19,225 nucleotides of DNA from NCBI GenBank assembly GCA_007117145.1, contig SKHC01000094.1, positions 1 through 19,225 on the forward strand, read 5' to 3'. Below, in pieces: positions 1,005 through 10,391 of the stretch; position 1 is the first letter of the stretch; every line of letters starts with the position of its first letter. The notes under the pieces were generated by a model. The model saw nothing but the letters and a program-made list of their open reading frames with translations. It did no database searches and was not told the origin of the DNA. The translations under genes and the position numbers were made by a program. This stretch comes from Candidatus Woesearchaeota archaeon (GTDB taxonomy: Archaea > Nanobdellota > Nanobdellia > Woesearchaeales > 21-14-0-10-32-9).

Positions 1005-1009
1005 AGGTG
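1005..1009 (+). promoter_or_regulatory. Shine-Dalgarno motif deciding the GTG start at 1019
   Basis: AGGTG lies 9 nt before the GTG at 1019 and matches the archaeal anti-SD sequence. It overlaps the alternative upstream GTG at 1007, which makes that codon an unlikely start. Confidence 0.5.
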
Positions 1010-1018
1010 TTAATCATC

Positions 1019-1246
1019 GTGGAAATAACTACTTTATTCAAAATACCGGCATTTTTACTAGTCATCGCTGTACTTGCATTTACAACCTATTATTTTACAA
1101 GTACAAGGCAAGGTCTGACCATTAGAATAAAATGGCTCAATAAAAAGATAGATTACAACACAAAGAAAGGTTATTACGTTAAAGCTTCAAGGCAGACAGG
1201 AAAAGTGTTTAACCTACAAAAAAGATTGGATAGCAAGGAGTATTAA
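1019..1246 (+). CDS. Small single-span membrane protein, 75 aa
   Basis: This is the first gene of a three-gene operon with two AAA+ ATPases; its stop is one base from the next ATG. The start is GTG 1019, chosen for the AGGTG motif 9 nt upstream. Residues 9-27 form one hydrophobic segment (IPAFLLVIAVLAFTTYYF). It is followed by a basic tail beginning STRQGLTIRIKW and rich in Lys/Arg, which by the positive-inside rule should be cytoplasmic. There is no class III or Sec cleavage motif, so it is probably an N-out anchor. I do not recognise the family. Its position suggests it could tether the two ATPases to the membrane, but that is inference from operon order alone. Confidence 0.65.
   Translation: MEITTLFKIPAFLLVIAVLAFTTYYFTSTRQGLTIRIKWLNKKIDYNTKKGYYVKASRQTGKVFNLQKRLDSKEY
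1236..1240 (+). promoter_or_regulatory. Shine-Dalgarno motif for the AAA+ gene at 1248
   Basis: AGGAG lies 7 nt before the ATG at 1248, inside the 3' end of the membrane-protein gene. This supports operon translation by an SD mechanism. Confidence 0.55.
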
Positions 1247-1247
1247 C

Positions 1248-1958
1248 ATGAGTTGGTATAAAAAATTTCAATTGTCAAGGAATCCGTTTTTGAAAAATCC
1301 TAAGATAAACGCAGATCTAATAGTTAAAGACATTCCAAAACTAAAAGACCTATTATACTACGTGGAGTCAGACAGTATAGTAATAGTTAGAGGTGAGAAA
1401 AATTCAGGTAAGACTCGTTTCGCATTAGAAGTATTAAATACAATTAAACCAAAACAAAAAAATCTATACATAGACCTAAAGCATTACAACAAGAACGTAG
1501 ACATAGAAGACATTCTTCTCTCAGTGCAACCAATGCATAGAAGGCTATTAAAATTATATCCAAAGAACATAGTGCTAATAATTGATAACGCTTTCAATTT
1601 CAATCCCAAGTTTTATCACAGGCTACAATACTTCTACGATCAAGAATACATAAAGTCAGCCGTAATCATTTACAAAGCAGATGAATTAGTTGAAATCCCT
1701 CCAAGTATTATGAGTAGAGTTGGTAGTAAATACATCGATTTATCAAATATGACAAAAGATTCAGCAATTAAAATAGTCTCAAACAGATTAAAAGGTAAAA
1801 TATTCAATGATGAGCATCTTGATGTAATTTATTCAAAATCAAAAGGATTTGAGGACTTTTTAAGCAACTGTGAAAAAATCGCAGTTCACTATGCTAATTC
1901 AAGGAAAGATTTTTCAAGAAAGATAGATATTCATTTTATTAGGAGGATGTTAATTTGA
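1248..1958 (+). CDS. AAA+ ATPase (ExeA/Orc1-Cdc6-like), probably hydrolysis-defective paralog
   Basis: This 236-aa protein opens with WYKKFQLSRNPF, like the start of ExeA-type AAA+ ATPases. Walker A is intact (GEKNSGKT, 49-56). Walker B is IVLIID (108-113), but the next residue is Asn114 where the catalytic Glu is expected. A lid region follows (TKDSAIKIVSNRL, about 169-181). At the sensor-2 position, where related proteins have a G/T-x-P-R motif, it has G200-F-E202-D. It keeps Arg157 in IMSRVGS, the area where Cdc6/ORC-type proteins carry a conserved Arg. It should bind ATP but may hydrolyse it poorly. The next gene is a paralog with the opposite pattern, overlapping by 4 bp. Whether the pair acts in replication, secretion or another role cannot be told from sequence. 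Confidence 0.8.
   Translation: MSWYKKFQLSRNPFLKNPKINADLIVKDIPKLKDLLYYVESDSIVIVRGEKNSGKTRFALEVLNTIKPKQKNLYIDLKHYNKNVDIEDILLSVQPMHRRLLKLYPKNIVLIIDNAFNFNPKFYHRLQYFYDQEYIKSAVIIYKADELVEIPPSIMSRVGSKYIDLSNMTKDSAIKIVSNRLKGKIFNDEHLDVIYSKSKGFEDFLSNCEKIAVHYANSRKDFSRKIDIHFIRRMLI
1941..1946 (+). promoter_or_regulatory. Strong Shine-Dalgarno motif deciding the TTG start at 1955
   Basis: AGGAGG lies 8 nt before TTG 1955. The nearby ATG at 1947 runs into a stop after three codons, so the rare TTG is the start, and the strong SD probably compensates for it. Confidence 0.65.
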
Positions 1959-2602
1959 CTTGGTATAATGAGTTAGGATATAAGAAGAACCCTTTTTCAA
2001 TAAAGCCAAACACAAAGTACAAGTTGTTTTTTGATGACAAAGACGTGTTAGGACTTATTAAGAAAAGTTTAGAAGCTAATCATAACGTGTTGTTAAAAGG
2101 TGTTTATGGTACAGGTAAAACCACGATTTTAAAGCAAATAATTAAGCTTTATGGTGGGAAGAGAAAAATTTTTTACTACAATGCTTTTTCAAAAGAAGAG
2201 TTAAACTACGATAAAATAATAAAAAATGCAGGTAACATATTTTCTAGGCTCTTTAAAATAAAGTCAGCTGAAGTAATTGTTTTCGTTGATGAAGCTCACA
2301 AAGTCCCTATAAGTCAAGCTTTTTCTTATAAAAATCATGAAAATAAGATAAAATCCATATTGTTTGTGAGTAGTGATACAAGTTTCATAATACCTAAAGG
2401 CTTTGAGCAAGATTTTCAAGTCATAATAAACTTAGATAATTTTACTCAAAAAGATGCTATAAATATAGTAAAAGACAGGTTAGGTGAGTCTCAAGACATC
2501 ATACCACATAATGCTATAATAGAGTTATACAATAAAAGTTATACTCCAAGAGATTTCATTTTAAGCTGTGAGTCTTATTGTAAAAACAACATATTATCAT
2601 AA
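1955..2602 (+). CDS. AAA+ ATPase (ExeA/Orc1-Cdc6-like), catalytically complete paralog
   Basis: This 215-aa protein is a paralog of the preceding gene: same opening (WYNELGYKKNPF), Walker A at the same residues (GVYGTGKT, 49-56), and similar C-terminal helices. Walker B is intact with its catalytic Glu (VIVFVDEAH, Asp112-Glu113). Sensor 1 is probably Ser139/Ser140, and sensor-2 Arg199 is present in TPRDF. In contrast, Gln152 stands where the sister protein has Arg157. The start is TTG at 1955, set by AGGAGG 8 nt upstream; its first four bases overlap the stop of the sister gene. The 3' end overlaps the convergent Lhr gene by 6 bp. The two proteins look like products of one tandem duplication that divided active-site roles. 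The cellular role is unknown. Confidence 0.8.
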   Translation: MTWYNELGYKKNPFSIKPNTKYKLFFDDKDVLGLIKKSLEANHNVLLKGVYGTGKTTILKQIIKLYGGKRKIFYYNAFSKEELNYDKIIKNAGNIFSRLFKIKSAEVIVFVDEAHKVPISQAFSYKNHENKIKSILFVSSDTSFIIPKGFEQDFQVIINLDNFTQKDAINIVKDRLGESQDIIPHNAIIELYNKSYTPRDFILSCESYCKNNILS

Positions 2603-9436: not shown

Positions 9437-9886
9437 ATGTTAAAAGCGCAAGCCTCGATAGAATTTTTATTTACGTATGGATGGGCCGTACTTGCAATAG
9501 CAGTCTCAATTGGGGCTTTAACGTACTTTAACTTAGCAAATCCAGATACCTTCGTGCAACAACGATGTGAGCTCTCAAGCCAAATACAATGTGTTGAGTA
9601 CGCAGTCTACGATAATAACACAGTTCATCTAAAACTTAGAAGTGATTTCCAAACAAGCATAAACATCACCGAAGTCACAGTGAAATACCTAAACGTACAA
9701 GAAAATACTTCAAATTCTTTTATCCTCAGGCCTCGAAGAGTTGAGGATGTTTTCATTGATCTTCCAGTTAACGCTGTTGAAAAAGCCACTGCAAGCATAA
9801 ACCTCGCGTTTTACTTCCAAGCAAACCAAAGCTCAAACACGTATAGAGTCAGCGGAACCATACATTCCCCCATTTCTCCTAGTTAA
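9437..9886 (+). CDS. Class III signal peptide (archaeal type IV pilin-like) protein, 149 aa
   Basis: A surface or pilus-type protein. The N-terminus MLKA|QASIEFLFTYGWAV has the class III signal pattern: a very short charged leader, cleavage by an EppA/FlaK-type prepilin peptidase before QASIEF, and a hydrophobic helix (about residues 10-31) that is both membrane anchor and assembly core. The remainder is a beta-rich extracellular domain with two cysteines (RCELSSQIQC, probably a disulfide) and several N-glycosylation sequons (NNT, NIT, NTS, NQS). It is paralogous to the next gene, sharing the helix, the C-x(7)-C pair, the V-E-[YW]-A-[VL]-Y-D-N segment and the end S-G-T-I. Each has its own leaderless promoter, so they are separately transcribed tandem duplicates. 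No assembly ATPase or platform gene lies in the window. Confidence 0.85.
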   Translation: MLKAQASIEFLFTYGWAVLAIAVSIGALTYFNLANPDTFVQQRCELSSQIQCVEYAVYDNNTVHLKLRSDFQTSINITEVTVKYLNVQENTSNSFILRPRRVEDVFIDLPVNAVEKATASINLAFYFQANQSSNTYRVSGTIHSPISPS

Positions 9887-9894
9887 TAACAATC

Positions 9895-9902
9895 TTTAAA
9901 TA
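9895..9902 (+). promoter_or_regulatory. TATA box for the second pilin-like gene
   Basis: TTTAAATA is centred about 28 bp before ATG 9927, in the 40-bp gap after the first pilin gene. It implies independent, leaderless expression of the second copy. Confidence 0.55.
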
Positions 9903-9926
9903 CCTAATTGTCAATAATTTGCTTCT

Positions 9927-10391
9927 ATGAACAAAAAAAGAGGGCAAGCTTCAGTAGAATTCTTATTCACCTATGGTTGGGCCATAATGGCCATAACTTT
10001 AGCCATTGGAACTTTGATGTACTTTAACATTTTAACTCCAGAAAGATATTTAAATCAGTATTGTGATGTCGGTGCTCAGTTTGATTGCGTTGAATGGGCT
10101 TTATATGATAATGGGACTATACAGTTAGTCATTTCAAATAATCACAGAGTAGACATTAACATAACAAATATCACGTATAGCTCGTCTCACTTCTCAGGAA
10201 ATCATACCGACTCTAAAAGGATAAACAGAGGACAAAACGAAAATATCACAATTAACGCAAATCCAACATCTCAATTGTTATTAGGTGATGTTCAAAGAAT
10301 CAGACTTGAACTTAATTATAAAAGAATTGGGGGGGTAAACAGTTACATGACTTCAGGCACCATTCTAACCCAAGTACTGTCAAGCAATTAG
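9927..10391 (+). CDS. Class III signal peptide (archaeal type IV pilin-like) protein, second copy, 154 aa
   Basis: Paralog of the preceding gene. The leader MNKKRG|QASVEFLFTYGWAIM carries four basic residues' worth of charge and the same QAS[IV]EFLFTYGWA core, followed by a hydrophobic helix to about residue 34. The extracellular part again has a Cys pair (CDVGAQFDC) and sequons (NGT, NIT, NHT), and ends SGTILTQV. Identity to the first copy is high in the first 60 residues and drops after that, typical of pilin pairs under diversifying selection. Which is the major subunit cannot be told. Its TAG stop shares four bases (TTAG) with the TAA stop of the convergent Kae1 gene. Confidence 0.85.
   Translation: MNKKRGQASVEFLFTYGWAIMAITLAIGTLMYFNILTPERYLNQYCDVGAQFDCVEWALYDNGTIQLVISNNHRVDINITNITYSSSHFSGNHTDSKRINRGQNENITINANPTSQLLLGDVQRIRLELNYKRIGGVNSYMTSGTILTQVLSSN

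Follow-up and report, generated by a model that had tools for sequence, protein, structure and literature searches.

The window, by which we mean the whole 19,225-nucleotide stretch of DNA analysed here, is a single contig from a draft genome of 640 kb whose completeness is estimated at 80%. It carries two tandem AAA+ genes on the same (+) strand, P1 and P2, which overlap by 4 nt at coordinates that the initial annotation had given correctly. A small single-TM protein is encoded 1 nt before P1, and an Lhr-type helicase gene follows P2 in convergent orientation. The features used throughout are as follows.

1007..1246, (+) strand: 75-79 aa single-TM protein with a short basic tail, starting at GTG 1007 or 1019; probable diverged member of the tail family described below
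1248..1958, (+) strand: P1, AAA+ protein of 236 aa, ATG start, Walker A kept; proposed arginine-finger donor
1392..1415, (+) strand: P1 Walker A, GEKNSGKT, residues 49-56
1584..1589, (+) strand: P1 Walker B, Asp113-Asn114
1716..1718, (+) strand: P1 Arg157, arginine finger
1851..1853, (+) strand: P1 Glu202, at the sensor-2 position
1955..2602, (+) strand: P2, AAA+ protein of 215 aa, TTG start, overlapping the P1 stop; proposed catalytic partner
2288..2293, (+) strand: P2 Walker B, Asp112-Glu113
2408..2413, (+) strand: P2 Gln152-Asp153, lost finger position
2549..2551, (+) strand: P2 Arg199, sensor 2

Elsewhere in the window, a 224-aa ORF lies at 287-961; it scored above cut-off with no Pfam family, and 20 other genomes contained no relative. 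Two adjacent small-protein genes at 9437-10391, which share a QASxEFLFTYGWA start and look like a tandem duplicate, appear pilin-like by eye and had no Pfam match at 0.01.

An AAA+ pair without a ready family name

Both proteins are AAA+ cores with a lid and belong to the initiator/clamp-loader branch, nearest in fold to Orc1/Cdc6/RFC; structure comparison of the predicted monomers of P1 and P2 returned Cdc6/Orc1, RFC, MuB and TnsC as the closest folds. Walker A occupies residues 49-56 in P2 as it does in P1. In the model of P1 (AlphaFold), Arg157 is the last residue of helix 152-157, which lies between strands 135-142 and 161-164. AAA+ proteins carry their finger at such a helix end between strands. 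PMC4358337 likewise places the arginine finger at a helix end. When the P2-family profile was aligned to Aquifex DnaA, the finger column fell on chain position 155 and the arginine of the NPR motif on position 202. If the DnaA chain starts at residue 76, these positions are presumably R230 (arginine finger) and R277 (sensor 2). The DnaA alignment thus supports the roles that had been assigned to these residues by eye.

Several family names were considered and set aside. Neither Orc1/Cdc6 initiator nor clamp loader was adopted, given the lack of a C-terminal winged helix in proteins of 236 and 215 aa and of a collar domain in the models, where P1 ends in lid helices and one short helix and nothing follows the lid of P2. 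ExeA was not adopted either, as no peptidoglycan-binding domain was found among the Pfam matches listed (for P2, the best 25 of 36); NCBIfam TIGR03015, the XrtA/PEP-CTERM ATPase, scored 12.1 bits against a cut-off of 324.5, and no ExeA-type model came near its cut-off. A defence origin has little support in PADLOC, where P1 had no match and P2 partial matches only (best 2.4e-5); among relatives, partial matches to the AAA+ core were AbiO at 1.1e-9 (residues 9-145 of one first gene, L065) and mad8 at 5.1e-9 (residues 33-104 of the single-gene protein L142, see below). A phage origin is likewise poorly supported by PHROGs, in which P1 had no match, P2 residues 33-210 matched a clamp-loader family (6.4e-8), and L142 matched a DNA transposition family (1.4e-12).

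Complementary losses across homologous tandem pairs

A profile of the first gene matched 91 of 287 genomes of the window's own order at E 1e-8 and, across the phylum, 78 of 371 genomes at E 1e-20, all 78 from the own order or class; both counts include longer single-gene relatives. Loci were fetched from the own order (20 + 60) and from other orders (20), and with the window they gave 55 own-order and 16 other-order tandem pairs, 71 in total, from 50 + 16 genomes and 15 + 4 families (19 families altogether). Pairs were chosen by family match and adjacency, independently of their active-site residues; residues were then counted per column over the 71 pairs with gaps left out, and because the sequences are related these counts are not independent events. 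Relatives that bear an organism name are assigned to Candidatus Woesearchaeota, Nanoarchaeota, Nanoarchaeia or DPANN. The P1 profile found at least eight proteins in a large protein set, and no relative turned up when named genomes were scanned with only P1 as query.

The initial annotation had described P1 as carrying Asn114, Arg157 and Glu202 and P2 as carrying Glu113 and Arg199, all of which we confirmed in the sequence. It had proposed that P1 supplies a trans-acting arginine to the active site of P2, in an obligate heteromer such as a 1:1 ring, and had named conservation of the pattern in homologous pairs as a check; the upstream membrane protein and the unsplit single-gene form described below were not part of it. 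In the 71 pairs from 19 families the proposal passes this check. A site assembled from the P2 pocket and the P1 finger has all its residues in every pair that can be read (68 of 68), three more being cut by contig ends. The reverse site, from the P1 pocket and the P2 finger, retains none of its three residues in 52 pairs, one in 19, and two or three in none of the 71. The finger Arg is present in 71/71 first genes and 7/66 second genes, the sensor-2 Arg in 7/70 and 68/68, and the Walker B Glu in 5/71 (Asn in 55, Asp in 11) and 70/70, respectively; P2 Glu113 and Arg199 are invariant in an alignment of 118 sequences. Pairs in which both copies keep Glu and the sensor-2 Arg had been named as the contrary case, and no first protein among the 71 pairs keeps both. 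Walker A Lys is found in 66/70 first genes (Arg in 4) and 70/70 second genes. These losses, and their constancy across the class, can be read directly from the sequences.

Three details of the earlier description were refined by the larger sample. Asn at the catalytic Walker B position is the rule in the own order (54/55 first genes), but the 16 first genes of other orders have mostly Asp (10) or Glu (5), with Asn in one. Loss of the sensor-2 Arg is common to most first genes, but the Glu that replaces it is particular to the window's P1, Lys being found in 39/70 first genes. Finally, P2 does lack an Arg opposite P1 Arg157, but the alignment pairs Arg157 with Asp153, one residue away from the Gln152 first proposed.

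When 186 columns were ranked with none chosen in advance, that of the finger came first in P1-specific conservation, and at the P2-specific end sensor 2 came second (third in a slightly different column set). Further columns specific to the first gene are Tyr37 (70/71), Asp131 (71/71) and Lys127 (64/71; Gln in the window's P1), and on these alignments we take Lys127, Asp131 and Arg157 to be parts of a first-gene trans face.

These columns bear on where P2 would obtain its finger. Another protein or another arginine of P2 might provide it, P1 then being an ATP-binding regulator that does not complete the P2 site. The Arg that 7/66 second genes keep at the finger column would fit such an arrangement, as would the Arg kept there by the contig-edge gene L068, which the tree places among the second genes. 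We nevertheless regard this source as improbable: the P1 finger Arg is without exception, and Asp131 and Lys127, conserved specifically in first genes, recur in all four unsplit proteins described below.

Decay offers a different account of the first gene, in which P1 is a paralogue losing residues by drift. Some pairs do look degraded: the first gene of the first pair at L094 is cut by a stop codon, that at L116 has no Walker A, and Arg replaces the Walker A Lys in the four first genes noted above. Across 19 families, however, first genes keep the finger Arg and Asp131 throughout and the Walker A Lys nearly so, and drift would not spare exactly the trans face; we therefore consider decay very improbable and reject it on the conservation of the first gene. 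A second, divergent pair was seen in the genomes of L080 (9324-10921) and L094 (7690-9178).

Phylogenetically, the second genes form one clade (support 0.971), and the first genes join the longer single-gene relatives at a support of 0.317 only, so that the tree does not separate the two. The longer relatives (L072-L076, L118-L136) occur with all catalytic residues in many genomes of the order: Glu and the finger Arg are present in 24/24 and the sensor-2 Arg in 23/24. They end in a winged-helix-like region; of four scanned with Pfam, a helix-turn-helix model was above cut-off in L164, below it in L072 and L075, and absent from L118.

A second unsplit form occurs in one family, f95 (L142, L143, L146 and L154), in which a single AAA+ gene combines Glu, the finger Arg and the sensor-2 Arg and lies directly after a tail gene of the kind described in the next section. 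At the 10 most P1-specific columns the four f95 proteins match the P1 consensus in 33 of 40 cells and the P2 consensus in 8, and at the 12 most P2-specific columns they match the P2 consensus in 37 of 48 cells and the P1 consensus in 14. Because they follow P1 at P1 columns and P2 at P2 columns, the f95 proteins carry both halves, including the equivalents of Arg157, Asp131 and Lys127 in all four. One of the f95 genomes, G293, contains another AAA+ match besides, to one of the longer single-gene relatives, which has the full catalytic set and a Pfam helix-turn-helix region; the other three f95 genomes have one match each at E 1e-20, among seven candidates scored per genome. The simplest history would be duplication of an f95-like motor followed by loss of the opposite face in each copy; the reverse course is also possible, and f95 is a single family of four loci.

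A hairpin-bearing membrane protein upstream of the pair

The gene directly upstream of the first gene often encodes a TM helix and a conserved C-terminal cytosolic hairpin, here called the tail, with a consensus of the kind RRAKKHHKLAEKYYxxGxxxEAxxHYxLAxxYREKA. A tail model was grown from one seed and used at i-E < 0.01; it was trained on pair-linked loci, which favours linked matches. In the window and 80 loci it recognised 32 proteins, each encoded on the strand of a pair and upstream of it at distances of -151 to +436 nt, the farthest (L090) having another small ORF in between. A tail gene thus precedes 32/55 own-order pairs, and 23/55, including the window's, have none that the model recognises. 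In other orders a tail gene is present in 17/20 loci, among them all four f95 loci, and none is recognised in 3/20; one more, non-adjacent match there was a 40-aa frame in L153 (8e-4). No tail gene was found at i-E 0.01 in the loci of the longer single-gene relatives (L072-L076, L118-L136).

A tail search of the 287 genomes gave 37 matches in 35 genomes, of which 31 adjoin a pair, one lies inside the same adjacent protein and five lie elsewhere (G160, G041, G139, G008 and G063). By hand count, a pair or a contig-cut member of one is present in 32 of the 35 tail-positive genomes against 53 of 287 overall; the corresponding hypergeometric probability (3e-27, for 32 of 33 stronger genomes) takes no account of relatedness or of the model having been trained on linked loci. 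At 1e-5 the tail profile found 10 small proteins in a protein set, and wherever an organism is named it is a member of Woesearchaeota. Nine proteins were scanned with Pfam, and all matches of the hairpin (TPR_2, TPR_11, MIT and DUF1771) were below cut-off. Three surface-type proteins carry the same hairpin at L161 2649-3362, L162 3098-6499 and L163 4723-7695, with no AAA+ gene of the P1/P2 family in the fetched 6.5-8.5 kb; for L163 (G008), no first-gene match was found in the genome at E 1e-8.

In size, the hairpin proteins extend from mere TM stubs up to giants of some 2,000 residues that carry adhesin-like domains. Frames of about 65-110 aa have almost no extracellular part, those of about 200-320 aa have Cys-rich stretches (by eye), and the largest upstream proteins reach about 1,700-2,300 aa; among the giants scanned, L062 and L063 have Ig-like or PKD domains, L066 an atrophied Ig and a beta-helix, and L067 InlB-type repeats. 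This range bears on the possibility that the AAA+ complex acts in secretion or assembly of surface proteins in the manner of ExeA/GspA of type II secretion, without a stable tether. In favour of such a role, JGI names the relatives P0009 and P0064 ExeA, and large upstream proteins have Ig-like, PKD and beta-helix domains; many upstream proteins, however, are the short frames with almost no ectodomain, and we judge this role rather unlikely.

A further alternative is a DNA-acting complex, an initiator or a clamp-loader-like assembly of the Cdc6/Orc or TnsC/MuB type, for which the membrane gene would be an unlinked neighbour. Such a complex would be in keeping with the closest folds, with the clamp-loader match of P2 in PHROGs and with the winged-helix-like ends of the longer relatives, which were above the Pfam cut-off in one of four scanned. 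The models of P1 and P2, on the other hand, show no winged helix beyond the lid, and in several families a gene for this same hairpin stands in front of the AAA+ genes, in split and unsplit forms alike, so that we consider action on DNA unlikely.

The window's own 75-79 aa ORF has one hydrophobic segment and a short basic tail and is not recognised by the tail model (3.0 bits with the TM segment, -0.6 without). In a direct comparison with the 32 tails, its tail does not clearly exceed chance: of 300 shuffles, 19 scored as well. A relative from a 1.8-kb contig, P0127, links the two: its AAA+ part is about 50% identical to P1 and is preceded by 39 extra in-frame N-terminal residues, a tail-like stretch that runs into a first AAA+ protein. 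Over 22 residues this leader matches the tail model with 12 bits (E 8e-6 for a search of a single sequence); it also matches the tails (0/300 shuffles as good), and it matches the window's tail with a score of 51 against a shuffled mean of 23 (0/5000 shuffles as good). Since the leader matches both, the window's upstream protein is probably a diverged member of the tail family, a link that runs through this one intermediate. From its reading frame, P0127 may also be a single polypeptide, a natural fusion that physically ties tail and AAA+ part.

The ends of the AAA+ proteins vary as well. Zinc ribbon-like ends, with two or more CxxC after residue 200, occur in 21/71 first genes, and charged linkers with an acidic-aromatic terminus (...AEKYY, ...GDEQYY, ...PEYNIVFYNE) are found at the end of many first or second genes. 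Both kinds of end may serve as docking parts on the tail, a suggestion judged by eye and confounded by ancestry.

The window's genus has a second pair, and in three genomes a gene for signal peptidase II (Pfam Peptidase_A8, at E 3e-27 or better) lies near it, on the strand opposite to that pair (L057 4342-4851, L058 7041-7478 and L059 2168-2581). Genes for a TM protein and for a small protein that looks soluble lie in between. LspA-type genes are unusual in archaea.

Known split ATPases and a proposed membrane-recruited motor

The principle of a split active site is already known. TorsinA is eukaryotic and belongs to a different AAA+ branch. According to PMC4358337, Torsin is a finger-less AAA+ ATPase activated by LAP1, a finger-bearing, membrane-linked partner, for which an alternating 1:1 hexamer ring has been proposed. 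TorsinA-LAP1/LULL1 resembles the arrangement proposed here for P1 and P2, in which a finger-less ATPase would be completed by an AAA+-like finger donor beside a presumed membrane anchor. Three further features differ: LAP1 lacks Walker A and B whereas P1, like most first genes, keeps Walker A; LAP1 bears the TM helix itself whereas the presumed anchor of P1/P2 is a third protein; and P1/P2 have an unsplit relative. In ORC, whose fold together with that of Orc1/Cdc6 is closest to P1 and P2, several paralogues divide the catalysis, and the Orc1/4 site has an arginine finger (PMC7450096); unlike these, P1/P2 have no winged-helix domain and are linked to genes for membrane or surface proteins. Paralogues of RFC, also among the best folds, share sites through trans-acting arginine fingers, according to PMC8893722. 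In RFC and the bacterial clamp loaders this sharing is similar to that proposed here, but P1/P2 comprise two subunits and have no collar domain.

The N-terminal W/Y-x-x-x-G-x-x-x-NPF-x-x-x-P stretch of P1 and P2 resembles that of ExeA/GspA, TniB/TnsC and MuB type ATPases, of which TnsC and MuB are among the fold matches. P1/P2 differ from ExeA/GspA in having no peptidoglycan-binding domain among the listed matches, and we know of no two-gene split system among ATPases of these types. The titles and abstract openings of the open-access literature searched contained no description of a P1/P2-type pair, and nothing like it was found in passages of PMC6393860, which lists archaeal families still without a characterised member.

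On the sequence evidence, an obligate heteromer of P1 and P2 is strongly supported. From the conserved residues and the gene context we infer catalysis in trans, the stoichiometry, physical tethering and action on a surface protein. Together these make up our preferred reading, to which we give a probability of about three in four: a membrane-recruited, obligately heteromeric Cdc6-type AAA+ ATPase in which the P1 finger completes the P2 pocket and the upstream protein is the tether. P2 would be the working pocket, with Walker A, the Walker B Glu and the sensor-2 Arg, and would be unable to fire alone. The trans face of P1 (Asp131, Arg157 and neighbours) would pack on this pocket and supply the arginine finger, and P1 itself would probably bind ATP without hydrolysis, as a structural ligand. 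Both sets of losses would fall on one silent interface, where the P1 pocket faces P2, as expected for an alternating ring, a short filament or a dimer. From the gene context, it is probably the cytosolic helical hairpin of the upstream single-TM or surface protein that tethers the complex to the membrane, at its inner face. ATP turnover would then assemble, cluster or reset that protein; whether the ATP cycle serves to assemble, cluster or release surface proteins is a matter of guesswork.

More broadly, we think there is an even chance that Nanoarchaeia-type archaea possess an unnamed three-part membrane machine, in which a hairpin protein recruits a Cdc6-type motor that is a single, self-sufficient protein in one lineage and split into trans-face and cis-face paralogues in most of those seen, so that ATP turnover there needs both subunits, and which may control the display or use of adhesins by these symbiont-like cells.

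The pair is a clear-cut natural example of a single AAA+ active site shared out over two genes, and an unsplit relative occupies the same setting. It predicts which residues matter and which are dispensable, and with the unsplit f95 relative the order and the cost of the split become testable. If the membrane link is true, the system would offer a way to approach the function of surface proteins in Woesearchaeota-type archaea, about which almost all knowledge comes from genomes.
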